From positions 1 through 36,564 of the forward strand of contig ONNZ01000019.1 in the NCBI GenBank assembly GCA_900319345.1: a stretch of DNA of 36,564 bases, written 5' to 3'. How positions within the stretch are numbered: position 1 is the first letter of the stretch; every line of letters begins with the position of its first letter. A program made the translations under genes and the position numbers. The notes under the pieces are model-generated. The model was not told where the DNA came from. It saw only the letters and a program-made list of their open reading frames with translations, and ran no database searches. Source of the DNA: an uncultured Eubacteriales bacterium (GTDB lineage: Bacteria > Bacillota > Clostridia > Christensenellales > CAG-138). Below, piece by piece: positions 1 to 13,123 of the stretch.

Positions 1-735
1 TTCGCGTGCCTCGGCAACGGGGTCATCATCTCCCACATGGCCAACGAGATCCGGCAGCGGGAGACCCTGTTCGCGGACTACATCTTCCGGTATCATCCCA
101 TCTATAAGAACGTGCCTCATTGGTACGAGCGGAGCAACAACTGGTCCATCGAGGGCGGCGACACCCTGGTGCTGAACGAGCGGACCATGGCCATCGGTAT
201 GAGCGAGCGCACCAGCCCCCAGGCCATCGAGGATATGGCCGAGAAGGTGCTGAGCGCCCACATGGGCGTGGAACAGATATTGGTGATCGACCTCCCCAAG
301 TTCCGCACGTTCATGCATCTCGACACGGTCATGACCATGGTGGACGTAGACAAGTTCGTGGTGCACCCCAACATCCAGCGGTCCATGCGCTCCTTCCTGC
401 TGACCCGAGGCGACGGGAAGCGGAAGCTGAATATCCAGGAGACCGGCCTCCCCATCGACGAGGCCCTGCGGAAGGTCATGGATCTCGACAAGATCACCCT
501 GATCCGCTGCGGCGGCGCCAGCACCATCGACGCGGCCCGGGAGCAGTGGAACGACGGCGCCAACACCCTGGCCGTGGCCCCCGGGGAGGTCATCACCTAC
601 ATCCGGAATCACGTGACCAACAGCATCCTGCGGGATCACGGCATCACCGTCCACGAGATCCCCTCCTCCGAGCTCTCCCGGGGCCGCGGCGGCCCCCGGT
701 GCATGAGCATGCCGCTGGTCAGAGACGGCATCTGA
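1..735 (+). CDS. arcA: Arginine deiminase, 5'-truncated by the window edge
   Basis: The reading frame is open from base 1, and the last 244 residues of a roughly 410-residue enzyme are visible. Arginine deiminase hydrolyses L-arginine to citrulline and ammonia, the first step of the cytoplasmic arginine deiminase pathway that yields ATP. Family signatures seen are EGGD followed by a TSPQAIE helix, the catalytic histidine in MHLDTVMTMVD, and the C-terminal GGPRCMSMP motif with the nucleophilic cysteine 11 residues before the end. The N-terminal third lies outside the window, so the start and promoter cannot be judged. No arcB, arcC or arcD follows; the next gene is convergent, and a strong terminator lies about 33 bases after the stop. 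Other ADI pathway genes, if present, are upstream or elsewhere. Confidence 0.96.
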   Translation, partial: FACLGNGVIISHMANEIRQRETLFADYIFRYHPIYKNVPHWYERSNNWSIEGGDTLVLNERTMAIGMSERTSPQAIEDMAEKVLSAHMGVEQILVIDLPKFRTFMHLDTVMTMVDVDKFVVHPNIQRSMRSFLLTRGDGKRKLNIQETGLPIDEALRKVMDLDKITLIRCGGASTIDAAREQWNDGANTLAVAPGEVITYIRNHVTNSILRDHGITVHEIPSSELSRGRGGPRCMSMPLVRDGI

Positions 736-751
736 GGCTTCTTTTTGCCGG

Positions 752-803
752 ATAAAGTTCTTTGGGATGCACCCTTTCTTGTAAGAAAGGGTGCATTGCT
801 TTT
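752..803 (+). terminator. arcA terminator with conserved upstream box
   Basis: A 13-bp perfect stem (768-780 pairing with 783-795, two unpaired bases) is followed by TTGCTTTT. It is preceded by the box ATAAAGTTCTTTGGG (752-766). The same box and nearly the same hairpin recur behind the dehydrogenase gene at 21661-21711 on the other strand. The outermost pair is T-A here and C-G there. Confidence 0.85.
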
Positions 804-812
804 GATCGTTCC

Positions 813-1466
813 TTATTTGTTTTCCGGGATAAGGTTCAAGAGGTCGTCGGTGTTGGCCACGTTGGTGTAGGCTTCCGGCACGTCGCCCACGATCACGTTC
901 TCCGCCACGGGGGCCTGGGTGAGGACGGTGACGGAATAGGAGCGGCCCGGCAGGACCACCCGGACCGTGCCGGTGAGCTGCAGGGTGATCCGGTGGAGGG
1001 TCTGGTTGATGCCCGCGGAACGGAACTCGCTGTGGAAGGAGGACTGGACCATGCCCACCGGCGTGAACCGGAAGCTGAGCCGGGGCCCCAGCCCCGCCAG
1101 CAGGGGCACGCCGCTGAGCGTCCCCAGGGGCACCGACACCCCCTGCTCCCCCAGGTCCTGGATCCGCCGCTGGGCCGCCGCCGCGCAATCCGCCGCCAGC
1201 AGGTTCAGCTTCCCCGCGTCCGCCGTCAGCAACGAGACGTGCCCCTCGTTGGATGCCTGGGCGCTCAGCAGCTCCCCGGTGGACGCGCTGCCCAGCACCT
1301 CCAATATGGCTTCGTTCATGGCCCGGGCCGCGGCGCTCTCCACCCGGGCGGAGGCGAGGCCCTCCAGCACCGGCCGCAGGCTGGCGTTCACGTACCAGAG
1401 GGCCCCCGCCGCGGCCAACAGCACCAGCAGCAGCCCCGCCAGCGCCTTTCGTTTTCGTCTGTGCAT
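813..1466 (-). CDS. yunB: Sporulation protein YunB
   Basis: This 217-residue protein has an N-terminal basic stretch (MHRRKRK), one membrane segment at about residues 8-26, and an extracytoplasmic domain. Its C-terminal half carries the YunB family pattern: FTPVG, then FHSEFRSAGINQTLHRI, and near the end PVAENVIVGDVP. In Bacillus, YunB is expressed in the mother cell and is needed for normal spore formation; its biochemical role is unknown. The ATG at 1466 is preferred over an in-frame GTG 18 bases upstream, because the GGAGG ribosome binding site (7 bases before the ATG) lies inside that extension. The gene is convergent with arcA and divergent from the two-component operon. It implies a spore-forming host. 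Confidence 0.9.
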   Translation of the reverse strand: MHRRKRKALAGLLLVLLAAAGALWYVNASLRPVLEGLASARVESAAARAMNEAILEVLGSASTGELLSAQASNEGHVSLLTADAGKLNLLAADCAAAAQRRIQDLGEQGVSVPLGTLSGVPLLAGLGPRLSFRFTPVGMVQSSFHSEFRSAGINQTLHRITLQLTGTVRVVLPGRSYSVTVLTQAPVAENVIVGDVPEAYTNVANTDDLLNLIPENK

Positions 1467-1549: not shown

Positions 1550-1604
1550 ATTACAAAGAAATTACATCTATTCCGCATCCTCTTTTTTCCAGGCATGGTA
1601 TCCT
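1550..1604 (+). promoter_or_regulatory. Candidate response-regulator operator and promoter of the two-component operon
   Basis: Two direct ATTACA copies (1550-1555 and 1561-1566) are separated by AAGAA, an 11-bp repeat typical of OmpR/PhoB-family sites. Exactly 32 bases after the second copy comes TATCCT (1599-1604), a likely -10 box; no good -35 is seen, as expected for an activated promoter. The same layout stands before the first lipoprotein gene (3683-3737). Inferred autoregulation. Confidence 0.65.
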
Positions 1605-1633
1605 ATAGGCAGGGAAACGAGAGGAGTTTTTGT

Positions 1634-2296
1634 ATGCAGAACCGCATCCTTTTGGTGGAGGACGACCAGGCCATCGCCGACGCCGTGGCCCTGAACCTGA
1701 AGATCGTGGGCTACGACTACGCCCGCTTCGACGACGGGCAGGCCGCTGCCGACAGTTTGGAGTCGGACCACGGCTTCGATCTTGCCCTCCTGGATATCAT
1801 GCTGCCCGGCATGGACGGGTTCGAGCTGTTGAGCTACATGAAGAAATACGGCATCCCCGTGATCTACATGACCGCCAAGGCCGACGCCGCCTCGGAGATC
1901 AAGGGCCTGCTGGACGGGGCGGAGGACTATGTGATCAAGCCCTTCGACATGATGGCCCTCATGGTGCGGATGGAGAAGGTGCTCCTGCGGACCGGGCGAC
2001 TGAACCGGATCTACCGGGCCGGGGACGTGGAGCTGGACGACTACAAGCACCTGGTCTACAAGGCCGGGGCGCCCGTGGAGGTGAGCCCTCTCGAATACGC
2101 GGTGCTGCTGTACCTCATGAAGCATAAGAACCTGACCGTGAGCCGGGAACAGCTGTTGAACGAGGTGTGGGGCTTCGAGTACATGGGCGAAAGCCGGTCC
2201 GTAGACGTGAAGATCTCCACCCTGCGGCGGAAGCTGGGCCTCGGCGACGCCATCAAGACCGTGCAAAAGCTGGGCTACAGATTAGAGGATCGATAG
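1634..2296 (+). CDS. OmpR/PhoB-family response regulator
   Basis: This 220-residue regulator starts at an ATG with GAGGAG 7 bases upstream. The receiver domain (about 1-118) has the acidic pair near residues 9-11, the phospho-acceptor Asp54 in LLDIMLPGMDG, the conserved Thr in YMTAKAD and the Lys in DYVIKPF. The C-terminal winged helix (about 128-220) ends with the recognition region SVDVKISTLRRKLG and the hairpin VQKLGYRLED. The kinase ATG follows the stop codon without a gap, so the two genes are translated together and form a cognate pair. The ATTACA repeats before this gene and before the first lipoprotein gene suggest its binding site. The longer in-frame extension upstream runs antisense through yunB and is not credible. 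The signal is not identifiable from sequence. Confidence 0.95.
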   Translation: MQNRILLVEDDQAIADAVALNLKIVGYDYARFDDGQAAADSLESDHGFDLALLDIMLPGMDGFELLSYMKKYGIPVIYMTAKADAASEIKGLLDGAEDYVIKPFDMMALMVRMEKVLLRTGRLNRIYRAGDVELDDYKHLVYKAGAPVEVSPLEYAVLLYLMKHKNLTVSREQLLNEVWGFEYMGESRSVDVKISTLRRKLGLGDAIKTVQKLGYRLEDR

Positions 2297-3676
2297 ATGA
2301 AGCTGCGACACAAGATCAGCCTGTTGGCCGGAGCCGTCCTGCTGCTGGTGCTCCTCACCTGCGCCGGGGTGCTGCTCCTGTACGCCCGGAAGACCATCTT
2401 AGCTCTGGCGGAGGACCAGGCCAGGGACAAGCAGAGCGCCCTCAGTGCCTCCTTCTCCTCCATGGTCCGGTACTACGCCGTGCCGGAGGACAGCGACGCC
2501 GCCCGGGAGAGCCTGATCCGGTACTGCTTCACCCGGTTCGCCGACCAGGAGGGTGTGCTCATGCGGGGCGGCGAGACCCTTTGCTCCTCCGTGGCCGTTG
2601 ACCCCAGCCTCTACGCCCTGCCGGACCGGGAGGACAGCCGGACCGCCGTCTACCGGGGATCGGTGGACGGGCGGCAGCTGCTGATCGTGGCGAGCCTCGA
2701 ATGGGTCCAGACGGACACCCTCTACGTGGGCTTGGTCCGGGACATCACGGAGGTCTACGACGCCATGGCCCGACTCACCCGGCTGTTCCTCGGGGTCTGC
2801 GCCGCCGGGGTGGCCCTGGGCATGGGGCTTCTGTTCCTGGCGGTGAAAAAGAGCACCGCCCCCCTCTCCCGCCTGACCGCCGCCACCGGGGAGATCGCCG
2901 CCGGAGCCTACGACAAGCGGGTGACCATTTCCGGCCGGGACGAGGTGGGCGACCTGGGGCAAAGCTTCAACCGGATGGCGGAGGCGGTGGAGAACAGGAT
3001 CGCGGACCTGACGGAGCAGAACGAGCGCCAGCGGCTGTTCATCGGCGGGGTGAGCCACGAGTTCAAGACCCCCTTGGCCGCGGTGGGCCTCCACGGGGAC
3101 CTGCTCCAAAACGCCAAATTGAGCGAGGCGGAGCGGGAGGATTCCCTGCAGCACATCCGCCGGGCCGGGGCCTACATGACGAGCATGACCCAGAGCCTCA
3201 TGGAGCTGCTGCTCCTCGATCAAGAGATCGAGACCGAGAAAACTGACCCCGCCGCCCTCCTTTCTATCGTATCGGAAGCCGCCTATGACGGTCTCGCCGC
3301 CCGGGGCGTGACGCTGGTCACCGCGTGCCAGGCCGCCTCTCCCCTGCCCCTGAACCCCACCCTCATGACCTCCCTGCTGCTGAACCTGGTGGAGAACGCC
3401 GCCCGCAGCTACGATGCGGAGGACGAGAACAAGACCGTCACCCTGCGGGCCTGTGGCCGCTGCTTCGAGGTGACCGACCGGGGCCGGGGTATCCCCGCCG
3501 AGGCCCAAGACCACATCTTCGAGCCCTTCTACCGGGTGGACAAGTCCCGCAGCCGCAAGCAGGGGGGCAGCGGCCTGGGCCTGGCCCTGGTCAAGGCCAT
3601 CGCCGACGCCCACGGGGCCAGCCTGTCCCTGGACAGCGCGCCGGGCCGGGGCACCACGTTTCGGGTGCAGTTTTGA
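2297..3676 (+). CDS. Sensor histidine kinase (HAMP, HisKA, HATPase_c)
   Basis: This membrane sensor kinase has 459 residues. The first membrane helix is at about 8-30 and the second at about 160-183, enclosing an extracytoplasmic sensor domain of about 125 residues. A HAMP linker (about 184-236) precedes the dimerisation helix with the phospho-acceptor His254 in GGVSHEFKTP. The ATP-binding domain shows the N box (Asn367 in LNLVEN), the G1 box DRGRGIP near 394-400, the F box EPFYRVD and the G2 box GGSGLGLAL near 423-431. It begins at the base after the regulator stop. The sensor domain is not one I recognise. Because lipoproteins follow immediately and appear to share the regulator's promoter element, an exported or envelope signal is a reasonable inference. 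Confidence 0.95.
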   Translation: MKLRHKISLLAGAVLLLVLLTCAGVLLLYARKTILALAEDQARDKQSALSASFSSMVRYYAVPEDSDAARESLIRYCFTRFADQEGVLMRGGETLCSSVAVDPSLYALPDREDSRTAVYRGSVDGRQLLIVASLEWVQTDTLYVGLVRDITEVYDAMARLTRLFLGVCAAGVALGMGLLFLAVKKSTAPLSRLTAATGEIAAGAYDKRVTISGRDEVGDLGQSFNRMAEAVENRIADLTEQNERQRLFIGGVSHEFKTPLAAVGLHGDLLQNAKLSEAEREDSLQHIRRAGAYMTSMTQSLMELLLLDQEIETEKTDPAALLSIVSEAAYDGLAARGVTLVTACQAASPLPLNPTLMTSLLLNLVENAARSYDAEDENKTVTLRACGRCFEVTDRGRGIPAEAQDHIFEPFYRVDKSRSRKQGGSGLGLALVKAIADAHGASLSLDSAPGRGTTFRVQF

Positions 3677-3682
3677 TCCACA

Positions 3683-3737
3683 ATTACAGTTTCATTACAA
3701 TTTCGAAAAGACTTTTAGGGCTGCTTCGTCGTACCCT
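3683..3737 (+). promoter_or_regulatory. Candidate response-regulator operator and promoter of the lipoprotein array
   Basis: ATTACA at 3683-3688 and again at 3694-3699 (spacer GTTTC, 11-bp period), then exactly 32 bases to TACCCT (3732-3737). The order and spacing match the regulator's own upstream region at 1550-1604. The stretch from the -10 to the start codon is also alike in both: GGCAG, then AAACGAGAG, then a T-rich run before ATG. The element begins 7 bases after the kinase stop, so the array can be transcribed separately from the kinase. Confidence 0.65.
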
Positions 3738-3767
3738 GGAGGCAGAAAAACGAGAGAGGTGATTTTT

Positions 3768-5183
3768 ATGAAACGAACCCTTGTATTCCTCCTCGCCCTC
3801 CTGCTCCTCGCCGGCTGCCAGCCCACGCCCCAGGCGCCCCTGGTCGTGCCCAAGGACCAGGAGCTGATGCTGGAAAAGGCGGCGGCCACCCAGGTCCCGG
3901 TGGAAGCGTATACCCCGCCCGCCGCGCCGGAACGGTGGACCTTCGACCATGGGGACGGCAACTTCGTGATCCACGCTGACGCGGACGTGGCGGTGCCTGA
4001 CGTGCCCCTGCCCACGGTCTGGGTCCGGGCGGAGGGCCTCCCCCAGGAGACGCTGTACCGACTGTTCCGCCTCCTGTCCCAGGGAGAGGAGCTGAAGCTC
4101 CCCCACGTGCAGACCAGGGCGGAGATCGAGGAGAGCATCCGGGCCTATACGGAACTGCTGGAACAGGGGCCGGACCAGGACGCCGACATGTCCAAGGAGG
4201 AATACGACGAGGGCCTGCTCCAGGAGATCGAATCCCTGAAGAAGGCCTACGAGACCGCCCCGGAAACCTCCCCGGATCGGGTCAGCGACGGCACCTACGA
4301 GGTGGAAAAGAGCGGAAAGACCGGCACGGACATGCTGGTGCTCAGCGCCAGCAACCTGAACCGGGAGATCAGCGCCCGCGCCTTTCCTCAGGCCGACGAG
4401 CGCTCCAGCTTCGCCTACTATCGGCATCTTCGGGGCCGGTCCGACTACTCCATGGCCAACGCCCGGCGGATGGAGGCGGCGGCGCTGCAGGACGATCCCC
4501 TGTATCAAAAGGCCATGGGTGAGGTCGAAGCCGTGTTGGAGACCATCGGCGATCCCTTCGAGGTGGCCGCTCTGTACCTCATCGACGACGCGGCCTACGG
4601 CAACGTGGACGGCATCGTCCACGACGCGGAGCACCGGGCCCTGTGCGTGGACTGCCGCCGGCTGGTGAACGGGGCGCCCGCGGCCTACGACGTGTCCGGC
4701 GCCGCCCGCAAGGACCCCAAGAGCTACGCCATCCCCTGGCCCGTGGAGAGTTTGCGGCTGGTGGTGGACGAGGAGGGCATCGTGTCCGTCAGCTGGAAGA
4801 ACATGGTGACGGTGCTGGAGACGGCATCCCCGGTCACGAACCTGCTGCCCTTCGACCAGGCGGCGGCCGTGGCGGAGAAGATGCTGCCCATCCTCTACAA
4901 CCCCACGGGCTGGGAGGACCTGCGCTCCGTGGATATCGATATCGTCCACGTGGGCCTGGAGCTCATCCGTATCCGGGAGCAGAACAACACCGGGGAGCTC
5001 AAGGGCCTGCTGGTCCCCGCCTGGGTATTCTACGGCACCATCCGGATGACCGAAGCCTCGGGCTTTCAGGATTACGCCAACTATGGGCTCAAAAGCGGCT
5101 ACGACCACTACCGGGGCGAGGAGATATTGCTCTGCCTCAACGCCGTGGACGGCAGCGTCATCGACCCGCTGCTGGGGTATTGA
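3768..5183 (+). CDS. Lipoprotein, paralogue 1 of 4 (uncharacterised family)
   Basis: This 471-residue secreted lipoprotein starts at ATG 3768, with AGGTG 6 bases upstream. The signal peptide MKRTLVFLLALLLLAGC has a canonical lipobox, with lipidated Cys17, so the protein should be anchored on the outer face of the membrane. After CQPTPQAP come a KDQELMLEKA helix, a strand pair ending VPLPTVWVR, a helical segment ending KKAYETAPE, a variable middle, then a conserved C-terminal block LLPF, KMLPILY, LLVPAWVFYG and finally NAVDGSVIDPLLGY. The closing pattern resembles the last strand of PepSY/YycI-like domains, which is inference only. It looks like the Clostridia family I remember as DUF6034; this is from memory and unverified. 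It is first of four paralogues behind a two-component system. Confidence 0.88.
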   Translation: MKRTLVFLLALLLLAGCQPTPQAPLVVPKDQELMLEKAAATQVPVEAYTPPAAPERWTFDHGDGNFVIHADADVAVPDVPLPTVWVRAEGLPQETLYRLFRLLSQGEELKLPHVQTRAEIEESIRAYTELLEQGPDQDADMSKEEYDEGLLQEIESLKKAYETAPETSPDRVSDGTYEVEKSGKTGTDMLVLSASNLNREISARAFPQADERSSFAYYRHLRGRSDYSMANARRMEAAALQDDPLYQKAMGEVEAVLETIGDPFEVAALYLIDDAAYGNVDGIVHDAEHRALCVDCRRLVNGAPAAYDVSGAARKDPKSYAIPWPVESLRLVVDEEGIVSVSWKNMVTVLETASPVTNLLPFDQAAAVAEKMLPILYNPTGWEDLRSVDIDIVHVGLELIRIREQNNTGELKGLLVPAWVFYGTIRMTEASGFQDYANYGLKSGYDHYRGEEILLCLNAVDGSVIDPLLGY

Positions 5184-5270
5184 AAGGAATGTATATATGC
5201 GTAAAGTTTGCATTTTTATTCTTTTATTTCTATTGATATGCGTTGGGTGCCAGCCCACGCCGGAGGAGCC
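5139..5270 (+). repeat. Junction repeat, copy 1 (lipoprotein 1 end / lipoprotein 2 start)
   Basis: The segment from the last 15 codons of one lipoprotein gene to the first 25 or so of the next recurs at 6634-6764. The first 38 bases and the last 35 bases are identical between the copies, while the gene interiors have diverged. This looks like the trace of tandem duplication or of gene conversion at the junctions. Confidence 0.75.
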
Positions 5271-6678
5271 TGCGGTGACGCGAAAGGATCAGCGCGCCAT
5301 GCTGGAGAGGGCCAAAGAGCCCATCCCGGCCGAGATGCTTTCCCTTCCCCTGAGGGAACGGCTGGAGGTCCCGGACCGACTTGCCTACGCCTATCAGAGG
5401 GGCGCGCTGACCATCGACGCTGACGCCGTCATCGTCATGCCTGAAAGCGAAATGCCCATCGTGCGGGTGTTTCCCACCGATTTTGACCAGGCCACGGTGA
5501 GCCGTCTTTGGAATACCCTGGTGGGGGACGTCCCTATGACGGCGGTCCAGGAATATAAGACGAAGGAATACTATGCTCCGTTGATCGAGCTGGCCCTCCA
5601 GGCGATGGAGAGCGACGATCCACAGAAGTATGGATTCGATTCCAGGGAGGACGCCCAGCGGAGGCTGGAATCGCTGCAGAAGCAGTACGTCGAAGCACCG
5701 GAAACGCCGACCGTGATCGCCGCGGACGGCACCCTGCAGCAAGGCGCATATCTTGACGACGAAGGGCAAGCGGCGGCGACATATACCTATATCAAGGCGG
5801 AATCCACCCAAACCGGCTACCGATTCATCGTCCGAAACAACGGGAGCAACGCCGAACCTATCCAAACGACCATGTACGACGATGCGGGCAAGGCTATGGG
5901 CTTCTCCCTGCGGCGGGTGGAGCGCAACGCCTATTTTTCCTTCATCAAGGGCAACGAAGATCAGGCGGCCTGCTTCGTCTGGGATCGGGAGCTGGACTGG
6001 GACGCTGACTGTCCCCCGGAGGCGGCCGGGAGCCTGTCCATCCCGCCCCGGCAGGCCGTTGCGGCGGCGGCACGGTTCCTGGAGGAAGCGGGCCTGGCGG
6101 AGGAGTATAGGGTCTGGCGGGTGTTCCTCATCACGGACTGGCCCGAAGGCGACGAGTCCTGCACCTATGCCTATAGGGTGGTCTGCTCCCGCCTGGTGAA
6201 CGGCTGCCCCACCCTGATGGCCGGGAACCTGGTGGAGGAAAGCGACGACGCGTTCGCGCCCAACTGGCGCTCGGAAAAGCTGTATGTGGACGTGAACGAC
6301 CAGGGCCTGTACTGCGTCCAACTCACCTCCCCCCTGACCGTGGGCGACACCATGATCGACCGGGCGAATCTCATGCCCTTCTCTGAGATCCGGTCCATCA
6401 TGGAAAAGATGCTGCCCATCCTGTACGAGGAACAGGCCCGCAGCTTTGAGGAGGGCGTCCGTACCACCTACGAGAAGCATATCCGCCGGGTGGAGCTGGG
6501 GCTTTGGTGCATTCGGGAGATGGACCAGCTGGGCCAGGGCATCCTGATCCCCGCCTGGGCCTTTTACGCCAATACCCGGGAGGTGAACGAGGACGGCGAG
6601 GCATGGTGCAGTTTTGAGCCGATCCTGCTTGTCAACGCCGTGGACGGCAGCGTCATCGACCCGCTGCTGGGATATTGA
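5197..6678 (+). CDS. Lipoprotein, paralogue 2 of 4 (uncharacterised family)
   Basis: This 493-residue lipoprotein begins 13 bases after paralogue 1; AAAGGA lies 8 bases before ATG 5197. The signal peptide MRKVCIFILLFLLICVGC has Cys18 as the lipidation site, with an unusual cysteine at -3 and another at residue 5. The mature part starts QPTPEEP and a KDQRAMLERA helix, as in the neighbours. The middle contains a predicted helical hairpin ending KQYVEAPETP, followed by DGTLQ. The C-terminal block matches the other copies: LMPFSEI, EKMLPILYEE, GILIPAWAFY and a final NAVDGSVIDPLLGY. Length and order of blocks make it a clear paralogue, but the interior has diverged strongly. Function is unknown; it probably acts outside the membrane, with the upstream sensor kinase as a candidate partner. 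Confidence 0.87.
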   Translation: MRKVCIFILLFLLICVGCQPTPEEPAVTRKDQRAMLERAKEPIPAEMLSLPLRERLEVPDRLAYAYQRGALTIDADAVIVMPESEMPIVRVFPTDFDQATVSRLWNTLVGDVPMTAVQEYKTKEYYAPLIELALQAMESDDPQKYGFDSREDAQRRLESLQKQYVEAPETPTVIAADGTLQQGAYLDDEGQAAATYTYIKAESTQTGYRFIVRNNGSNAEPIQTTMYDDAGKAMGFSLRRVERNAYFSFIKGNEDQAACFVWDRELDWDADCPPEAAGSLSIPPRQAVAAAARFLEEAGLAEEYRVWRVFLITDWPEGDESCTYAYRVVCSRLVNGCPTLMAGNLVEESDDAFAPNWRSEKLYVDVNDQGLYCVQLTSPLTVGDTMIDRANLMPFSEIRSIMEKMLPILYEEQARSFEEGVRTTYEKHIRRVELGLWCIREMDQLGQGILIPAWAFYANTREVNEDGEAWCSFEPILLVNAVDGSVIDPLLGY

Positions 6679-6764
6679 GGGGATGAATATATGAGAATAT
6701 ATTGCATTTTTATTCTAATATTACTGTTAATATGCGTTGGGTGCCAGCCCACGCCGGAGGAGCC
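6634..6764 (+). repeat. Junction repeat, copy 2 (lipoprotein 2 end / lipoprotein 3 start)
   Basis: Direct copy of 5139-5270, with the same 38-base left end and 35-base right end and a more variable centre holding the ribosome binding site and start codon. A weaker third version spans the next junction from about 8209 to 8342. Confidence 0.75.
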
Positions 6765-8253
6765 CTTCGTCATTGGAAAGGACAATGGGCAGATGATCGA
6801 AAAGGCCAGGGATACGGAAAAACCGGCGAAAACGGGCGGGGACCTGCACGAGGCGTTGGGCTGTCCGAAGACCTATGTGATAGATATTCGGAACGACGCT
6901 GCCCGGGTGCATATACAGGGCGAAGCGAAGGTCATATTGCCGGAGACGGAGGGGCTGCCCCTCGTTTACGTCCAGGCGGCCCGGTTCGACCAGGAACGGG
7001 TGTACGCCTTCTTCCGGGCCCTGACGGGCGGGGTAGAGATGTACGACATCCCCACCGCCACGCCCAAGGCCGTGATCGAAAAACGGATCCGGGCGGCACA
7101 GGCGGAGCTGGACGAGCTCGTCGTCGCCCGAGGGGAGGACGATTTTCGGGTCCAGTTCAAACGAAGCGAAATCGCCAGCCTGCAGAAGGCCTATCAGGAC
7201 GCCCCGGAAACCGTGTCGCTGACGATCAACGACGGGACATTGAAGCCCTATACCATGACCTTTCTGGGGAAAAACCGAGGCACAGCCACGGCGGTGGACG
7301 CCATCAGCTACCCCTTCGGCGACGACGGCGGGCGCTGGTTCGCCGTGAACAACGACGCGGACTACGCGGACGCGGGCAGCTACACCTTCATCGACCAGGA
7401 CGGCAACGAGCAGTTCTTCACGCCCCACAGCGGGTCCAACCTCATGTATGCGGCCAAGAGCGGCGTCATGGTGGGCACCTATTCGGCCGGCACCATCCTG
7501 GCGGACGCCACGGCGGCGAGCCTGACCGGGGCGGCTGTGGCCTTCCCTGAAAACTATACCATCCTGGGCTATCTGGAGCCGGAAGTCCTGCGCCTCTCCC
7601 TCACCCCCGCCGACGCCCGACGGCAGGCGGAGGAGCTCATGACCGCTTGCGGCGTGACGGACATGTTCGTGGACGGGGTGTACCTGCTGTCCGACCGCCA
7701 GGAGATATACGGCGCCGAGTATTGGGAACCGGCCGATCTTGCGGAGCTTCGGGCCAAGCCGGAGCATCAGGTCTACGCCGTGCGCTTTTTGCGACGGGTC
7801 GCGGGGGTGCCTGTGGAGAGCTTTTTCGGCATGAGTCAGGTGAAGGTGGACGACAGCGGCTACGGGCCGGAGTGGCAGTACGAGGTGTTGGAGGTGGCCG
7901 TGGACGACGGGGGCATCCAGGCCGTGGAGTGGACCGGGCCGTTGACGGTGGAGTCCGTCATAACCGAGAAAGCGGCCCTGCTGCCCTTCGAGGACGTGCG
8001 CTCCATCTTCGAGAAGATGCTGCCCGTCGTCTACGCCAACTACGGGGCGGACCGGGACTGGGACATCGAGATCAGCCAGGTGCGGCTGTGCCTCTGGCGC
8101 ATCTTCGACAAGAACTCCTTCACCCGGGGCATCCTGGTGCCCGCCTGGTGCTTCTACGGCGCCGTGGACGGCCGCCCGGCCACGAACTTTCAGCCCCTGC
8201 TCATCGTGAACGGGGTGGACGGCAGCGTCATCGACCCCTTACAGGGCTATTGA
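6691..8253 (+). CDS. Lipoprotein, paralogue 3 of 4 (uncharacterised family)
   Basis: This is the longest member, 520 residues. It starts at ATG 6691 with GAGGGGA about 7 bases upstream, 12 bases after the previous stop. The signal peptide MRIYCIFILILLLICVGC again places cysteines at 5, 15 and 18; Cys18 should be lipidated. The mature start QPTPEEP and the KDNGQMIEKA helix are family hallmarks. The helical segment ends KAYQDAPETV and is followed by DGTLK. A Gly/Asp-rich insertion in the middle (about residues 200-270) accounts for the extra length. The C-terminal block is conserved: LLPFEDV, EKMLPVVYAN, GILVPAWCFYG, and a last NGVDGSVIDPLQGY. No enzyme motif is visible. An extracellular binding or signalling role is inference. 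Confidence 0.87.
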   Translation: MRIYCIFILILLLICVGCQPTPEEPFVIGKDNGQMIEKARDTEKPAKTGGDLHEALGCPKTYVIDIRNDAARVHIQGEAKVILPETEGLPLVYVQAARFDQERVYAFFRALTGGVEMYDIPTATPKAVIEKRIRAAQAELDELVVARGEDDFRVQFKRSEIASLQKAYQDAPETVSLTINDGTLKPYTMTFLGKNRGTATAVDAISYPFGDDGGRWFAVNNDADYADAGSYTFIDQDGNEQFFTPHSGSNLMYAAKSGVMVGTYSAGTILADATAASLTGAAVAFPENYTILGYLEPEVLRLSLTPADARRQAEELMTACGVTDMFVDGVYLLSDRQEIYGAEYWEPADLAELRAKPEHQVYAVRFLRRVAGVPVESFFGMSQVKVDDSGYGPEWQYEVLEVAVDDGGIQAVEWTGPLTVESVITEKAALLPFEDVRSIFEKMLPVVYANYGADRDWDIEISQVRLCLWRIFDKNSFTRGILVPAWCFYGAVDGRPATNFQPLLIVNGVDGSVIDPLQGY

Positions 8254-8268
8254 GAAAGGAGTGCATAT

Positions 8269-9693
8269 ATGCGAAATAATTGCATTATTATTCTAATATT
8301 TCTATTGGTATGCACCGGGTGTCAGAAGACGCCGGAGGAGCCCATCGTGGTGGGGAAGGATCAGCAGCAGATGATCGAGAAGGCCCAGGGCGAGACAGTG
8401 TATGCCGCCGACGCCCCGGCGGGGGTGGACTGGGCGGCGCGGCTGGGGGTCCCGAAGAGGTATGAGGCCAAGCTCACCAGCGCCGGGGGCCACCTGGTGG
8501 TGGACGTGGACGCAACCGTGAGCCTGCCGGAGGTGGAGCTGCCCGTGGTGCGGGTGTCGCCGTATCTATTCACCGACGAGGACGTGCATCGGTACGCCCG
8601 GGCCCTGCTGGGGGAGGAGCTGAAGTGCCTGGACCCCTGGAACGAGAACAACCGGACCAAGGCCATGTGGGAGAAGGAGATCATGGCGCTGAAGAACGAT
8701 CTGGACCACTGGGAGGAGTACGGCAGCGTCATCTGGGACAGCTACGACAGCAAGGCGGATTTTGAAAGGGCCCTGCAGGAAAAGATGGTCCGGGCCGCCA
8801 ACGCCCCGGAGCGGCCCGAGACCGCCGCTCCCACCTGGACCTGGGAGACCCCCAACGTGTGGACGAAGGACGGGAAGCAGGAGACCAGCGACCGGTATAT
8901 GACGTTGCTGGTGCTGAACGAGGATAACAGCGAGTCCCTTCTCTCCATCGACCGGGCCTCGGAATGGGGCCGCTGCGGCCTCCGGTATCTGCGGGACGCG
9001 GACAGCAGCCTTCATTTCGACCTCTTCAGCGGCGTCTGGCCCAACGAGCTGTCCCTGACCCGGGAGGGAGCCCAACAGGCGGCGGAGCAGAAGCTGAAGG
9101 ACATGGGGCTCGATCACCTCCAATGCGCCTACGGTGCCAGCCTGCGGGTCTACCGGGGGGGCGTGATCGTGGAGGGGAACCCCTACGGGGCCTACTGGGC
9201 CTTCGTGTTCACGCCGGAGGTCAACGGAGCGCCTCTGGGCTTTACCCTCCAGACCGCCGTGGAGCCATCGGAATTCAACCGGGAATGGCGGTACGAGCAG
9301 TGCCGGGTGCTGGTGGACGAGGCAGGCGTGGCCCTCTTAGAATACGACGCCCCCTGCGCCGTGGAGAGGGTCGAGGTGGAAGCGGCCACCCTGCTGCCCT
9401 ATTCGAAGATCCAGGAGATCTTCGAGAAGATGGTGTTGATCGTGAACAACAACGCGGACGTGAACGGCTCCGACCAGCGCTACATCGTGACGGAGGTCCG
9501 GCTGAGCCTGGTGACCCTGCCGGAACAGAACGGGGACGGGGGCCTGCTGGTGCCCTGCTGGGACTTCCTGGGCTATCCCCCGGAGACCGCAGACTATCCG
9601 CCCCTCTGGCGGACGCTAGGCCTGCAGCCCCTTGAGGCCTACTGCCATCTGACCGTCAACGCCATCGACGGCAGCATCATCCAGAGACAATAA
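8269..9693 (+). CDS. Lipoprotein, paralogue 4 of 4 (uncharacterised family)
   Basis: The last member has 474 residues and starts at ATG 8269, with AAAGGAG 7 bases upstream and a 15-base gap to paralogue 3. The signal peptide MRNNCIIILIFLLVCTGC keeps cysteines at 5, 15 and 18. The mature part begins QKTPEEPIVVGKD and has the LPEVELPVVRV strand shared by the array. It is the most divergent copy: the middle is rich in Trp, Asp and Asn, and the C-terminus ends NAIDGSIIQRQ, lacking the DPLLGY tail of the others. The C-terminal pattern LLPY, IFEKM and GLLVPCWDF is still recognisable. A terminator follows, so the operon ends here. Confidence 0.86.
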   Translation: MRNNCIIILIFLLVCTGCQKTPEEPIVVGKDQQQMIEKAQGETVYAADAPAGVDWAARLGVPKRYEAKLTSAGGHLVVDVDATVSLPEVELPVVRVSPYLFTDEDVHRYARALLGEELKCLDPWNENNRTKAMWEKEIMALKNDLDHWEEYGSVIWDSYDSKADFERALQEKMVRAANAPERPETAAPTWTWETPNVWTKDGKQETSDRYMTLLVLNEDNSESLLSIDRASEWGRCGLRYLRDADSSLHFDLFSGVWPNELSLTREGAQQAAEQKLKDMGLDHLQCAYGASLRVYRGGVIVEGNPYGAYWAFVFTPEVNGAPLGFTLQTAVEPSEFNREWRYEQCRVLVDEAGVALLEYDAPCAVERVEVEAATLLPYSKIQEIFEKMVLIVNNNADVNGSDQRYIVTEVRLSLVTLPEQNGDGGLLVPCWDFLGYPPETADYPPLWRTLGLQPLEAYCHLTVNAIDGSIIQRQ

Positions 9694-9709
9694 ATCAGAG
9701 AACGCAAAA

Positions 9710-9743
9710 CGGAGAGTCCGGCCGGGCTCTCCGCTTTTCTGTT
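9710..9743 (+). terminator. Terminator of the lipoprotein operon
   Basis: CGGAGAG (9710-9716) pairs with CTCTCCG (9727-9733) around a GC-rich loop and is followed by CTTTTCTGTTT. It lies between convergent genes; the T-rich tail favours the plus strand. Confidence 0.75.
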
Positions 9744-9752
9744 TAATTCGAC

Positions 9753-10457
9753 TTATCCCAACCAGTTGGTCTGCTCCACGATGAACATGTTGCATCGGCG
9801 GGTCAGACGCAGGTCCTCCTTGGTGAGGAGCAGGGATTCCGTCAGCTCCTCGTTCTCCGGCAGGATGGACGCGGAGACGATGCACTTGGCCGACGCAGGG
9901 AGGAGCATCCTTGAGGAGATGCCGGAGAGGAGGCCGGTGCTTTCGCTGGGCCGGTCCAAGGAGCGCATGACGCAGAGGAAGGCGTGCTCCACCCCGTTGG
10001 ACTGGTTCTCCAGCAGGTAGTTGGTGACGAAGTCGTGCTTCTGCCGCCGGCCGTAGTAGAGGGCCCGGCACCGCTGGGGCTCCGTGAAGGAGGGGATGTC
10101 GTAGAAGAGGGTCACGGCGTCGTCCCCCTCGTCCTGCCCGGAGACCAGGAGGCTTCGGACGATGCGGCTGGCCCGGCCGTCGTAGAGGTACATGTAGCGG
10201 CGCTCCCCCATGAGCCGGGGCTCCCCCTTCTCCCTCTTCTCCGGCAGCAGGGACACCATCAGCTGGAAGGGGCTCACCCTCAGGGCCGCCGCGATCTCGT
10301 ACAGGGTATCGAGATCCAGAGCGATGGCCCCCTGCTCGTATTTGCCCACGGTGGCCTTGCTCTTGTTGATTTTTTCCGCCAGCTCCGATAGGGTCATCCG
10401 GTTGGCCCGGCGGTAGATGCGAATATTTTCCCCCACGCGCATGCCCAATTCACTCAT
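9753..10457 (-). CDS. XRE-family transcriptional regulator with C-terminal effector-like domain
   Basis: This is a 234-residue cytoplasmic protein. Residues 8-62 form a Cro/C1-type helix-turn-helix, with TLSELAEKINKSKATVGKYE as the two binding helices. The remaining 170 residues form a domain I do not recognise, with several strands and short motifs such as MYLYDGR and SRMLLPAS; it may sense a ligand. The start at 10457 is chosen because GGAG lies 7 bases upstream; an earlier in-frame start would extend 28 residues through a promoter-like region. The gene is divergent from brnQ across 190 bases that hold an inverted repeat, so control of brnQ is plausible but inferred from position only. Confidence 0.88.
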   Translation of the reverse strand: MSELGMRVGENIRIYRRANRMTLSELAEKINKSKATVGKYEQGAIALDLDTLYEIAAALRVSPFQLMVSLLPEKREKGEPRLMGERRYMYLYDGRASRIVRSLLVSGQDEGDDAVTLFYDIPSFTEPQRCRALYYGRRQKHDFVTNYLLENQSNGVEHAFLCVMRSLDRPSESTGLLSGISSRMLLPASAKCIVSASILPENEELTESLLLTKEDLRLTRRCNMFIVEQTNWLG

Positions 10458-10531
10458 GTAAATACTCCTTCCTCTCCCAAACGGCCAGGGTCGCTTGCTA
10501 CATCCAGTATATCGCTGAAAAATGGTATTGT

Positions 10532-10560
10532 AAAGAGACAAAACGGTATAAAATCTCTTT
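10532..10560. promoter_or_regulatory. Inverted repeat in the regulator/brnQ divergent region, candidate operator
   Basis: AAAGAGA (10532-10538) and TCTCTTT (10554-10560) form 7-base arms with starts 22 bp apart, about two helical turns. The repeat encloses TATAAA (10547-10552), and TACAAT on the minus strand (10527-10532) overlaps its left edge. A dimeric repressor could bind here. Inferred from symmetry and location only. Confidence 0.4.
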
Positions 10561-10579
10561 TCGATGCGTTTTGGGACGT

Positions 10580-10609
10580 TTGCGCGGGGGTGCCCTTTGC
10601 GGATATACT
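10580..10609 (+). promoter_or_regulatory. Candidate brnQ promoter
   Basis: TTGCGC (10580-10585), 18-base spacer, TATACT (10604-10609); the start codon is 38 bases downstream behind AGGGAGG. The -35 match is only moderate. Confidence 0.45.
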
Positions 10610-10647
10610 AAGGATGCACATTTGGATACATCTTAGGGAGGTAGCCC

Positions 10648-11991
10648 ATGAACGACAAGCTCTCCTTCGGCAAGGTATTCGTCCTCGGTTTCGCCCTGTT
10701 CGCCATGTTCTTCGGCGCGGGCAATCTGATCTTTCCCCCGGCCCTGGGCATCGTCACCGGCACCAACTGGATGATCAGCTTCCTGGTGTACATCCTGGCG
10801 GACGCGGGTCTGGCCATCCTGGCGCTGCTCGCCTTCTTCCGCTGTCAGGAGGGCTTCCAGAACAGCATCTCCATCCAGCTGGACAAGACCACCTCCTTTC
10901 TGCTGATCCTCTTCAACACCCTGTGCATCGGTCCCTTCATCGCCATCCCCCGGACCGCCGCCACCACCTTTGACATCGCCGTGAAGCCCCTTTTGGGCGC
11001 GTCCTTCCCCGGCTGGACCTCCTGGGTCGCCGGCGGCATCTACTTCGCCGTGGTGCTGATCCTGTGCCTTCGGCCCGGCAAGGTGGTGGACATCATCGGC
11101 AAGGTCCTGTCCCCGGCCATGTTCGTAGCGCTGCTGGTGCTCATCGGCATCGGCATCCTGCATCCCCTGGGGAAGGTGGCCCCCGGCTCCTCCACCATGG
11201 CGGCCGTGAAGCTGGGCCTTGAGTCCGGATACCAGACCATGGATATGCTGGGCTCCCTGCTCTTCGCGGTGGTCACCCTGGCCTCCGTGAAGCAGACGGG
11301 CATCACCAGCCCCAAGAAACAGTTCCGGCTGGTGGCCCTGGCTGGCCTGGTGGCGGCCTTCGCCCTGTTCGTGGTCTACGGCGGCCTCACGTTCCTGGGC
11401 GCTTCCATCTCCGGGGAGCGAGGTCTGGCCGCCAATGCCCTCAACGATCGGGCGGGGCTGCTGGTGCTCATCGTCCGGCGGCTGGTGGGCCCGGCGGGGG
11501 CGCTGCTCCTGGGCTTCATCGTGACGGCGGCCTGCCTCACCACGTCCATCGGCCTTGCCTCCTCCTGCTCCCAGAACATCGAGGAGCTGACCCATGGCAA
11601 GCTCCCCTATCGGCCCGTGCTCATCGGCATGATCCTCTTCAGCTACGTCGTGTCCAACCTGGGTACCACCGCCATTTTGAACATCGCGGGGCCCATCCTG
11701 AACGTGATCTTCCCCGTGTTCATCATGCTGGTGATCCTCTCCTTCCTGCCCAAGCGCATCAACCAGGAGACCTACAGCGCCCCCTACGGCGCCCTGTGCG
11801 CCTTCATCGTCACGGTGCTGACGGAGATCGGCGGCTTCATCCCATCCCTGAAGCTCCTCATGACCCGGCTGCCCCTCTCTTCCGTGGGCCTCGGCTGGCT
11901 GATCCCCTCCCTGATCGCCGCGGCCATCGGCGCCTTCGTGGGCGCTTTCGTGCCCCGGAAGCATCGGTCCTTCCACAAGGAGAAGAAATAA
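10648..11991 (+). CDS. brnQ: Branched-chain amino acid:cation symporter BrnQ
   Basis: This 447-residue, very hydrophobic protein has about 12 membrane helices. The LIVCS family signature is at the N-terminus (FALFAMFFGAGNLIFPP), with further typical segments GPFIAIPRTAATTF and ACLTTSIGLAS in the expected places. It imports leucine, isoleucine or valine driven by a sodium or proton gradient. The C-terminus ends in a basic tail (PRKHRSFHKEKK), as expected for a cytoplasmic end. AGGGAGG lies 7 bases before the ATG. It is a single-gene transcription unit, divergent from an XRE regulator and followed by tdh-kbl, which has its own promoter. Which branched-chain amino acid is preferred cannot be told. 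Confidence 0.95.
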   Translation: MNDKLSFGKVFVLGFALFAMFFGAGNLIFPPALGIVTGTNWMISFLVYILADAGLAILALLAFFRCQEGFQNSISIQLDKTTSFLLILFNTLCIGPFIAIPRTAATTFDIAVKPLLGASFPGWTSWVAGGIYFAVVLILCLRPGKVVDIIGKVLSPAMFVALLVLIGIGILHPLGKVAPGSSTMAAVKLGLESGYQTMDMLGSLLFAVVTLASVKQTGITSPKKQFRLVALAGLVAAFALFVVYGGLTFLGASISGERGLAANALNDRAGLLVLIVRRLVGPAGALLLGFIVTAACLTTSIGLASSCSQNIEELTHGKLPYRPVLIGMILFSYVVSNLGTTAILNIAGPILNVIFPVFIMLVILSFLPKRINQETYSAPYGALCAFIVTVLTEIGGFIPSLKLLMTRLPLSSVGLGWLIPSLIAAAIGAFVGAFVPRKHRSFHKEKK

Positions 11992-12003
11992 TATACTACC
12001 TCC

Positions 12004-12018
12004 GCCCCCGGCGGGGGC
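12004..12018 (+). terminator. Weak terminator-like hairpin after brnQ
   Basis: GCCCCC and GGGGGC pair around GGC, followed by ATTGTTGT, which is a poor T-run. The tdh -35 box begins two bases later, so the hairpin may only partly insulate the two units. Confidence 0.5.
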
Positions 12019-12019
12019 A

Positions 12020-12048
12020 TTGTTGTACGATGGAAGCAGTGATATACT
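12020..12048 (+). promoter_or_regulatory. Candidate tdh promoter
   Basis: TTGTTG (12020-12025), 17-base spacer, TATACT (12043-12048), 34 bases before the tdh start codon. Confidence 0.65.
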
Positions 12049-12082
12049 GAACCCATAGAAAATGTGAAAGGAAGGCAAGCAA

Positions 12083-13123
12083 ATGACCCAGAAGATGATG
12101 GATGCCATCGTGAAGCCCATCGCGGGCGTCGGTTTGGAGCTTCGGCAGGTGCCCGTGCCCGTGCCCGGCCCCGGCGAGGTGCTCATCAAGATCCATAAGA
12201 CCGCCATCTGCGGCACGGACGTGCATATCTACGACTGGACCCCCTGGTCCGCGGAGCATGTGAAGCCCCCCATGGTCATCGGTCACGAGTACGTGGGCGA
12301 GATCGCGGAGCTGGGCGCCGGCGTCACCGGCCTTCAGGTTGGCATGCGGGTCAGCGGCGAAGGCCACATCACCTGCGGCCACTGCCGCAACTGCCACACC
12401 GGCAACATCCAGTGGTGCAAGAACACCCACAGCGTGGGCGTGGATCGGGACGGCGCCTTCGCGGAGTACGTGTGCATCCCCGCCAGCAACGTCATCATCA
12501 TCGACCCCAAGCTGGACGAGGACGTGGTCTCCTTCTTCGACGCCTTCGGCAACGCCACCCATACGGCCCTCATGTTCAACCTGGTGGGCGAGGACGTGCT
12601 CATCACCGGCGCGGGCCCCATCGGCGTCATCGCCGTGGGTATCTGCAAGTACGCGGGCGCCCGGCGGGTGGTCATCACGGACATGAACGAGTATCGGCTG
12701 GACCTGGCCAGGAAGATGGGCGCAGACGCGGCCGTGAACATCGGCAAGGCGAATTTGGAGGAGGTCATGCACCAGCAGGGGCTGGTGGAAGGCTTTGACG
12801 TGGGCCTGGAGATGTCGGGCAGCGGCGCGGCTCTGAAGCAGATGCTGTCCGTCATGCGCAACGGCGGCAAGATCTCCCTGCTGGGCCTCGGCAACGGGCC
12901 CATCAACCTGGACATGAACCTGATCATCGGCAAGGGGCTGACCCTCCAGGGCATCTATGGCCGGAAGATGGACAACTGGCACCAGATGAGCTACATGGTC
13001 CAGGGCGGTCTCGATCTCACGCCGGTCATCACCCACCGGTTCCACTACACCGACTTTGAAAAGGGCTTCGCGGCCATGCACTCCGGCAACTCCGGAAAAG
13101 TAGTACTCGACTGGACGAAATAA
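12083..13123 (+). CDS. tdh: L-threonine 3-dehydrogenase
   Basis: This 346-residue, zinc-dependent medium-chain dehydrogenase oxidises L-threonine with NAD to 2-amino-3-ketobutyrate. The catalytic zinc ligands are Cys43 (AICGTDVHIYDW) and His68-Glu69 (GHEYVGE). The structural zinc site has cysteines at 98, 101, 104 and 112. The nucleotide fold starts at VLITGAGPIG, and an acidic residue in ITDMNEY would select NAD. The HIYDW motif is characteristic of threonine dehydrogenase within the family. The start follows GGAAGG. kbl, whose enzyme consumes the unstable product, lies 124 bases downstream, which is the usual pairing. The long intergenic space with a folded element is unusual for this operon. 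Confidence 0.97.
   Translation: MTQKMMDAIVKPIAGVGLELRQVPVPVPGPGEVLIKIHKTAICGTDVHIYDWTPWSAEHVKPPMVIGHEYVGEIAELGAGVTGLQVGMRVSGEGHITCGHCRNCHTGNIQWCKNTHSVGVDRDGAFAEYVCIPASNVIIIDPKLDEDVVSFFDAFGNATHTALMFNLVGEDVLITGAGPIGVIAVGICKYAGARRVVITDMNEYRLDLARKMGADAAVNIGKANLEEVMHQQGLVEGFDVGLEMSGSGAALKQMLSVMRNGGKISLLGLGNGPINLDMNLIIGKGLTLQGIYGRKMDNWHQMSYMVQGGLDLTPVITHRFHYTDFEKGFAAMHSGNSGKVVLDWTK

Follow-up and report, generated by a model that had tools for sequence, protein, structure and literature searches.

A conserved direct repeat upstream of a two-component operon and of DUF6034 lipoprotein genes suggests an autoregulated regulon in uncultured Clostridia

RESULTS

The window analyzed here comprises positions 1 to 36,564 of contig ONNZ01000019.1 (assembly GCA_900319345.1) from an uncultured Eubacteriales bacterium, and it carries a two-component operon followed by an array of lipoprotein genes, all on the forward (+) strand. 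The response regulator (RR; 220 amino acids, 1634..2296) has Response_reg and Trans_reg_C domains, both scoring above the cut-off (PF00072, 82.6 bits; PF00486, 79.5 bits), as expected for a protein of the OmpR/PhoB type. Next comes the gene for a membrane histidine kinase (HK; 459 amino acids, 2297..3676), which has HAMP, HisKA, and HATPase_c domains and an extracytoplasmic domain without a Pfam match. The array encodes lipoprotein 1 (471 amino acids, 3768..5183; 222.3 bits, also matching LPAM_1), lipoprotein 2 (493 amino acids, 5197..6678; 227.5 bits), lipoprotein 3 (520 amino acids, 6691..8253; 234.5 bits), and lipoprotein 4 (474 amino acids, 8269..9693; 198 bits), the scores being those against the DUF6034 family (PF19499), whose gathering cut-off of 27 bits is exceeded by all four.

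Upstream of the RR gene lies the direct repeat ATTACA-N5-ATTACA (boxes 1 and 2; 1550..1566, +), an exact match that is kept before orthologous regulators, and 32 bp past box 2 there is a -10 element, TATCCT (1599..1604, +). The same arrangement precedes the lipoprotein array, where the repeat (3683..3699, +) starts 6 bp past the kinase stop codon and the -10 element, TACCCT (3732..3737, +), is again 32 bp past box 2. An earlier note on this DNA had described these two occurrences of ATTACA-N5-ATTACA-N32-TAYCCT (1550-1604 and 3683-3737) and the likeness of the leaders, and both descriptions hold: GGCAG (1608-1612 and 3741-3745) and AAACGAGAG (1615-1623 and 3748-3756) are present at both sites, and the distance from the box to the ATG is 84 and 85 bp. 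Close orthologs retain the leader in part, for example with GACAG, AAGCAG, or GGACAG where the window has GGCAG, and with AAAGAGAG. When the gap was allowed to vary from 30 to 34 bp, the pattern gave two matches in the window, and none of 100 dinucleotide shuffles contained it. Exact matches to the bare 17-bp repeat number two in the window and three in the whole 2.14-Mb genome, which has none for the pattern read backwards. The third genomic site (C25:23080) reads ATTACA-AGTCG-ATTACA-ACTCT-GTTACA, so that a third box follows after another 11 bp. A TATCAT lies at 31 bp, GGCAG comes after this -10 in the leader, and the gene downstream encodes a permease. A sigma-70 promoter scan of the window listed neither of the two promoters, in line with the missing consensus -35.

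The strongest evidence comes from loci in which an RR gene, an HK gene, and DUF6034 genes stand together, because there the proteins have diverged far while both operators have stayed. Among 32 distinct modules of this kind, 28 have a box (one mismatch allowed in ten letters) within 160 bp upstream of the RR gene and 26 have one around the gap between the kinase and lipoprotein genes; of 43 RR-HK pairs that are not tied to DUF6034, 1 has a box (L304, with the C33-type regulator of G007). The earlier note had named absence of the motif upstream of orthologous operons as one result that would refute its prediction; the motif is present upstream of most of them. Both boxes persist even in paralogous modules whose kinases share about 32 to 35% identity with the window kinase. 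Of the control pairs, 19 come from the family (box in 1 of 19; L018 and L311 represent one and the same pair) and the other 24 from distant bacteria. They are what remained of 56 pairs after eleven fragments of window-type modules and a fragment of a DUF6034 module (L152) had been removed by hand and the unscorable L138 had been set aside. Loci L011 and L012 have boxes at both places, at up to one mismatch; they were missed by the module rules and stand outside the 32.

A count over 103 genomes of the family gave 83 occurrences of the 17-bp repeat and 8 of the backwards control pattern. The downstream gene encodes a DUF6034 protein at 37 of the 83 sites, the commonest target class, an RR of the window type at 15, and a member of one permease family at 11; the remaining 20 sites have none of these and are called unlinked. 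This classification supersedes a first pass over 80 distinct contexts (36 DUF6034, 15 RR, and 29 other), and two sites that are seemingly contig-end or broken copies of linked ones (G005:C93:6273 and G006:C43:133) were kept as unlinked. The best -10 element, taken as the hexamer that scored highest over 16 offsets when TA...T earned a bonus, lies 31 bp after box 2 at 44 of the 63 linked sites and 32 bp after it at 12; the other seven have it at 39 bp (four sites), 38, 36, and 33 bp. At the unlinked sites, a spacing of 31 to 32 bp was found in 6 of 20, versus 56 of 63. Because of the bonus, the letters of the -10 are partly given by construction, and the spacing is the actual test. The gap of exactly 32 bp and the sequence TAYCCT that the earlier note had put forward are true of both window sites but are local: most of the family has 31 bp, and other -10 elements read TATGCT, TACACT, TATCAT, TATGAT, or TAGGAT.

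The 56 linked sites used for a search for further boxes reduce to 29 non-redundant contexts. A third box at offset +22 matches on average 2.34 of 5 letters, which is weaker than boxes 1 and 2, while most other offsets score 0.55 to 1.62 letters, with 1.9 at offset 17. At the two window sites the corresponding hexamers, TCCGCA (1572..1577, +) and GAAAAG (3705..3710, +), are degenerate and match weakly, so that the third box is seen as a set-wide enrichment. The set shows no TTGACA-like -35.

Within the host genome (2.14 Mb in 68 contigs, 90% complete), a DUF6034 search gave 20 matches, which merge by reading frame into 16 genes at eight loci. Operon heads with nTTACA-N5-nTTACA at up to one mismatch are those on C19, C25 (before the permease), C25:55306, C14, C33, and C60, and some DUF6034 heads carry three or four repeats at 11-bp steps. 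The box is thus present at 6 of the 7 DUF6034 operon heads that could be scored, the head of the C61 operon lying outside its contig. This result extends the earlier idea that four uncharacterized lipoproteins are the main visible output: the DUF6034 genes are indeed the commonest target, but with this many operon heads carrying the box the predicted output is wider, about 16 DUF6034 genes and an ATP-binding cassette (ABC) transporter. The permease (582 amino acids, no Pfam match) is clustered on C25 with four DUF6034 genes and an ABC ATPase, and similar clusters are found in G008 and G074. The C25 cluster (L287 3165-4910 and L294 1073-3813) also encodes a large protein that carries a long repeat of the PTDTPKPTD type and matches CARDB. 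Separately, G007 (L305 1240, -) and G010 (L306 2845, -) have a similar repeat, ATTACAACTTTTTTACA / ATTACAACTATTTTACA followed by GTTTTGACGAATATG; it lies divergent to a gene that resembles, by eye only, a BlaI/MecI-type repressor.

In an unrooted FastTree phylogeny of 25 regulators, 17 on the DUF6034 side (16 or so of them encoded beside DUF6034) split from 8 others with a support of 0.983, the 8 including the host genome's seven other full-length OmpR-type regulators. Only two of the host's eight full-length OmpR-type regulators, the window RR and a regulator on C33, have a box in the fetched locus. The C33 locus (L285 about 9020-12415; G000 C33:17520-20915) consists of an RR gene and an HK gene followed by a gene that has its own TTTACA-type box; the C33 boxes end 10 bp before TATACT and so have the same half-site in a different spacing class. 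The C33 sequence TTTACAACGCCATTACA recurs in the other genomes of the genus apart from G004, where one letter differs. Of the 103 genomes, 21 have a relative of the window kinase with at least 40% identity, a count that omits G091 and G096 (35% identity) from the 23 found, and a linked box is present in 19 of these 21 versus 5 of the other 82. The kinase is present in 7 of 12 genomes of the genus, which have at least 14 to 17 DUF6034 matches each, except a fragmentary one with at least 4; the five without the kinase have at least 1 to 5.

DUF6034 itself occurs in 60 of the 103 family genomes and in 41 of 297 genomes sampled from the order. The earlier note's word uncharacterized is apt in that the family has no known function, but the family does have a name; no paper of the library searched names DUF6034, PF19499, or EUBREC_2869, and a broad combined search found none on this system among the papers listed, judged by title and abstract. 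The window lipoproteins are diverged, the other three being 30, 33, and 26% identical to lipoprotein 1. Lipoprotein 2 (5197-6678) has best matches of only 34 to 37% in four other loci of the genus, compared with 57 to 96% for lipoproteins 1, 3, and 4; it lacks a close relative there, which suggests turnover of array members within the genus. Each of the 65 aligned sequences matches DUF6034, and 16 match LPAM_1; the other Pfam matches listed are weak and scattered. The invariant columns, in lipoprotein 1 numbering, are C17, T20, P21, E327, P417, and G462, of which the cysteine is given by construction because the members were chosen for a lipobox. The predicted DUF6034 model of lipoprotein 1 has a mean pLDDT of 91.9, and among the best 50 of 362 PDB matches only 5coz is a fold match with an E value of 0.001 or below. 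The kinase model (mean pLDDT 83.4, pTM 0.51) shows an extracytoplasmic alpha/beta domain without a Pfam name.

The closest named relatives of the window kinase come from uncultured Clostridiales RUG11425, RUG13181, RUG14781, and RUG11019 (98, 97, 91, and 70% identity), which we take to be rumen metagenome-assembled genomes. The next three, at 50 to 51% identity, include a metagenome-assembled genome from the omasum of dairy cattle and "Christensenella sp. UBA3792." As these records stand closest, the host is probably an uncultured gut clostridium of rumen origin. Several features adjoin the module. The array ends in a terminator-like hairpin (9710..9733, +; 10 pairs, 7 of them G-C, with a T-rich tail), one of 7 such sites in a scan for which the shuffle mean was 5.8. 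On the other side, yunB, a sporulation gene (813-1466, -; TIGR02832 above the cut-off), is divergent to the putatively regulated operon and lies 83 bp from its first box. In G008, another RR-HK pair (L298 15129-17305) stands immediately upstream of the module, at the place that yunB and an arginine deiminase gene occupy in the window (37-1466). The counterpart of that pair in the host genome is apparently on contig C23, so that a rearrangement has taken place in one of the two genomes.

DISCUSSION

The same operator stands before the RR gene and before its candidate targets, and it is conserved in orthologs (63 linked sites, 32 modules). A box before the RR gene implies autoregulation, and the autoregulated regulon that the earlier note had predicted is supported by these results. 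We consider it likely that a DUF6034-linked regulator, the shared operator, autoregulation, and lipoprotein and transporter targets together form the regulatory core. In our model, OmpR/PhoB-type regulators tied to DUF6034 would bind head-to-tail ATTACA repeats 11 bp apart. With the transcription start assumed to be about 7 bp past the -10, boxes 1 and 2 would lie about 44 to 60 bp upstream of the start and the weaker third box near the -35 position, and the regulator would activate promoters with a -10 and without an evident -35. We prefer activation over repression because the boxes lie upstream of the -10, a position that makes activation likely. The window RR would use the operator on its own gene and on the adjoining four-gene DUF6034 operon, and its further targets may include other DUF6034 operons of the genome as well as the operon of the permease and the ABC ATPase. 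The membrane kinase would sense an envelope cue, the response to which would be the lipoproteins and the transporter. If so, this is a new regulon with an unstudied output, built on a known kind of machinery and holding far beyond the window.

Several observations weigh against this model or narrow it. Three of the 32 modules (L202, L203, and L207) have no box at all, and four others (L205, L307, L297 second, and L015) are without one of the two, although the second box of L015 lies just past the gap window and was scored absent. The DUF6034 operon on C20 has no box at up to one mismatch. Regarding the repeat itself, the scan of the 29 contexts shows a second rise at offsets 29 to 31, which is a T-run and not an 11-bp step, and no enrichment at offset 33, the place of a fourth box. 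The family counts are not phylogenetically independent, given how closely many of the genomes are related. Linked boxes occur in five genomes without a kinase match at E values of 1e-70 or below; in two of these, G068 and G071, another kinase is encoded beside a DUF6034 gene. G007, whose kinase relative is only 33% identical, retains a multi-box promoter before a DUF6034 gene. Finally, a near-identical box precedes the gene of the second regulator, that on C33, at 10 bp from the -10. In view of the linked boxes without a kinase match and of the G007 promoter, paralogous regulators may read the same box. Since that promoter speaks against a reading with one regulator, we would assign the box to the group of DUF6034-linked regulators and not to the window RR alone.

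What the regulon does for the cell can be said only tentatively. We place first an envelope response to envelope-active or antimicrobial compounds, in which the lipoproteins would either act as surface binders or modulate the kinase, because a transporter is among the targets and the lipoproteins are multiplied and diverged; the main alternative function is tuning of the kinase by the lipoproteins. It is also possible, if somewhat unlikely, that the lipoproteins and the ABC transporter provide immunity to, or detoxification of, envelope-active peptides of competitors, with the two-component system as the alarm. This would be a functional reading of the preferred model and not of the operator. 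The clustering of the permease and the ABC ATPase with DUF6034 genes behind the same operator speaks for it, as do the many diverged family members; neither a substrate nor a phenotype goes with it, and the permease is without a Pfam match. A bolder and rather unlikely extension is that the module, with its own operator and a shared ABC transporter, is a repeatedly duplicated, family-wide cassette, each sensor having its own set of diverged surface lipoproteins as interchangeable co-receptors or decoys for a wide range of envelope-active compounds, so that the whole forms a sensing-and-immunity system; our literature search found no description of a lipoprotein-based cassette of this kind.

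Another explanation is that the boxes are read mainly by a different OmpR-type regulator, that of C33 or a WalR-like one, and that the window RR is merely a target. In its favor, the C33 regulator gene is itself preceded by TTTACAACGCCATTACA, with another box 1.8 kb further along, the reverse strand of the operator fits the WalR consensus, and the multi-box promoter survives in G007, which lacks the window kinase. However, the C33 box has its 10-bp distance to the -10 where 56 of 63 linked sites have 31 to 32 bp, and it is also found in five genomes of the genus that have neither the window kinase nor an exact ATTACA pair. The linked boxes, in contrast, track the window kinase, and boxes are retained before divergent DUF6034-linked regulators. 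We therefore regard this explanation as improbable and keep the DUF6034-linked regulators as the candidate readers of the box.

A third possibility is that the system is WalRK-like and serves cell wall homeostasis, with the DUF6034 lipoproteins tuning the kinase in the manner of YycH and YycI. The reverse complement of the operator, TGTAAT-N5-TGTAAT, fits the Bacillus subtilis WalR consensus, TGTWAH-N5-TGTWAH (PMC9210968). As in WalRK, there is an OmpR-type regulator, a membrane kinase with an extracytoplasmic domain, and accessory envelope proteins in the locus; wal operons typically have accessory membrane proteins, and Clostridioides difficile has the lipoprotein WalA. The top PDB match of the kinase model is a WalK-YycH model (9a5d), with TM scores of just 0.41/0.31, and the next ones are generic kinase cores. 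The scores, on the other hand, argue against orthology: the RR reaches 133.5 to 134.7 bits against a YycF cut-off of 340, only seventh of the eight full-length regulators in the genome, and the HK reaches 162.3 bits against a WalK cut-off of 725. Whereas wal operons are reported as not autoregulated, the box before the RR gene in 28 of 32 modules would point to autoregulation here, and DUF6034 takes the place of YycH, YycI, or WalA. A YycH/YycI-like fold, suggested by a C-terminal motif, was unsupported by the best 50 of 362 PDB matches of the DUF6034 model, and neither family is among the 25 of 44 Pfam families listed for the 65 proteins. Moreover, the window-type kinase is missing from 5 of 12 genomes of the genus, three of them at least 92% complete, unlike what is expected of an essential system. 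WalR orthology was rejected on the cut-offs, and we regard a WalRK-like system as improbable. That the repeat is a by-product of chance or close kinship, without regulatory meaning, is very improbable: many genomes are indeed close relatives and the counts non-independent, but the boxes are retained even as the sequence separating them from the -10 varies (29 non-redundant contexts), the operator recurs in paralogous modules with kinases about 32 to 35% identical, and the backwards control gave 8 matches versus 83.

Some gut Clostridia hold large families of lipoproteins of no known function, DUF6034 among them. Linking DUF6034 to a transporter, a single operator, and a single kind of sensor would give a first testable handle, as the operator predicts co-moving genes and the kinase offers a route to the signal. 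An operator of WalR/PhoB-like form used by regulators that score below both cut-offs would also call for caution when regulons are predicted from motifs alone. The interest of the system, moderate at present, would grow should the lipoproteins turn out to be sensors or decoys.

Other known systems invite comparison. The earlier note had likened the repeat to PhoP-type boxes. The form agrees, because PhoB/PhoP operators are built of 11-nucleotide direct-repeat units (PMC4415409), and PhoB is the top-scoring NCBIfam family for the window RR; the likeness is generic, as the reverse strand fits WalR and the RR, at 173 bits, is below the PhoB cut-off of 296.2, so PhoB orthology was rejected. The 63 linked sites include no phosphate gene because of how the classes were defined, and the 20 unlinked sites received only a brief look. 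The single pstS model searched for (TIGR02136; other phosphate genes were left aside) had no match in the 90%-complete genome. The MtrAB-LpqB system of actinobacteria, in which the MtrA site consists of two short direct repeats (PMC5650626), is a precedent for an RR-HK-lipoprotein operon with such repeats. It differs in that the window RR scores 157.1 against the MtrA cut-off of 300 and the HK 150.5 against the MtrB cut-off of 450, that no LpqB-type family is among the Pfam matches listed for DUF6034 proteins, and that the lipoproteins here are multiplied and have a promoter of their own. For the lipoproteins themselves, the nearest structure is 5coz (EUBREC_2869, an uncharacterized protein of Eubacterium rectale), which the DUF6034 model matches with an E value of 3.4e-10 and a probability of 1.00; the identity is 13%, with TM scores of 0.43/0.56 and a root-mean-square deviation of 13.2, and the DUF6034 sequence profile missed it, giving four weak PDB matches of which none is convincing. 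By analogy, the system may work like an activator of the PhoB/WalR type, and we claim membership of neither system for it.

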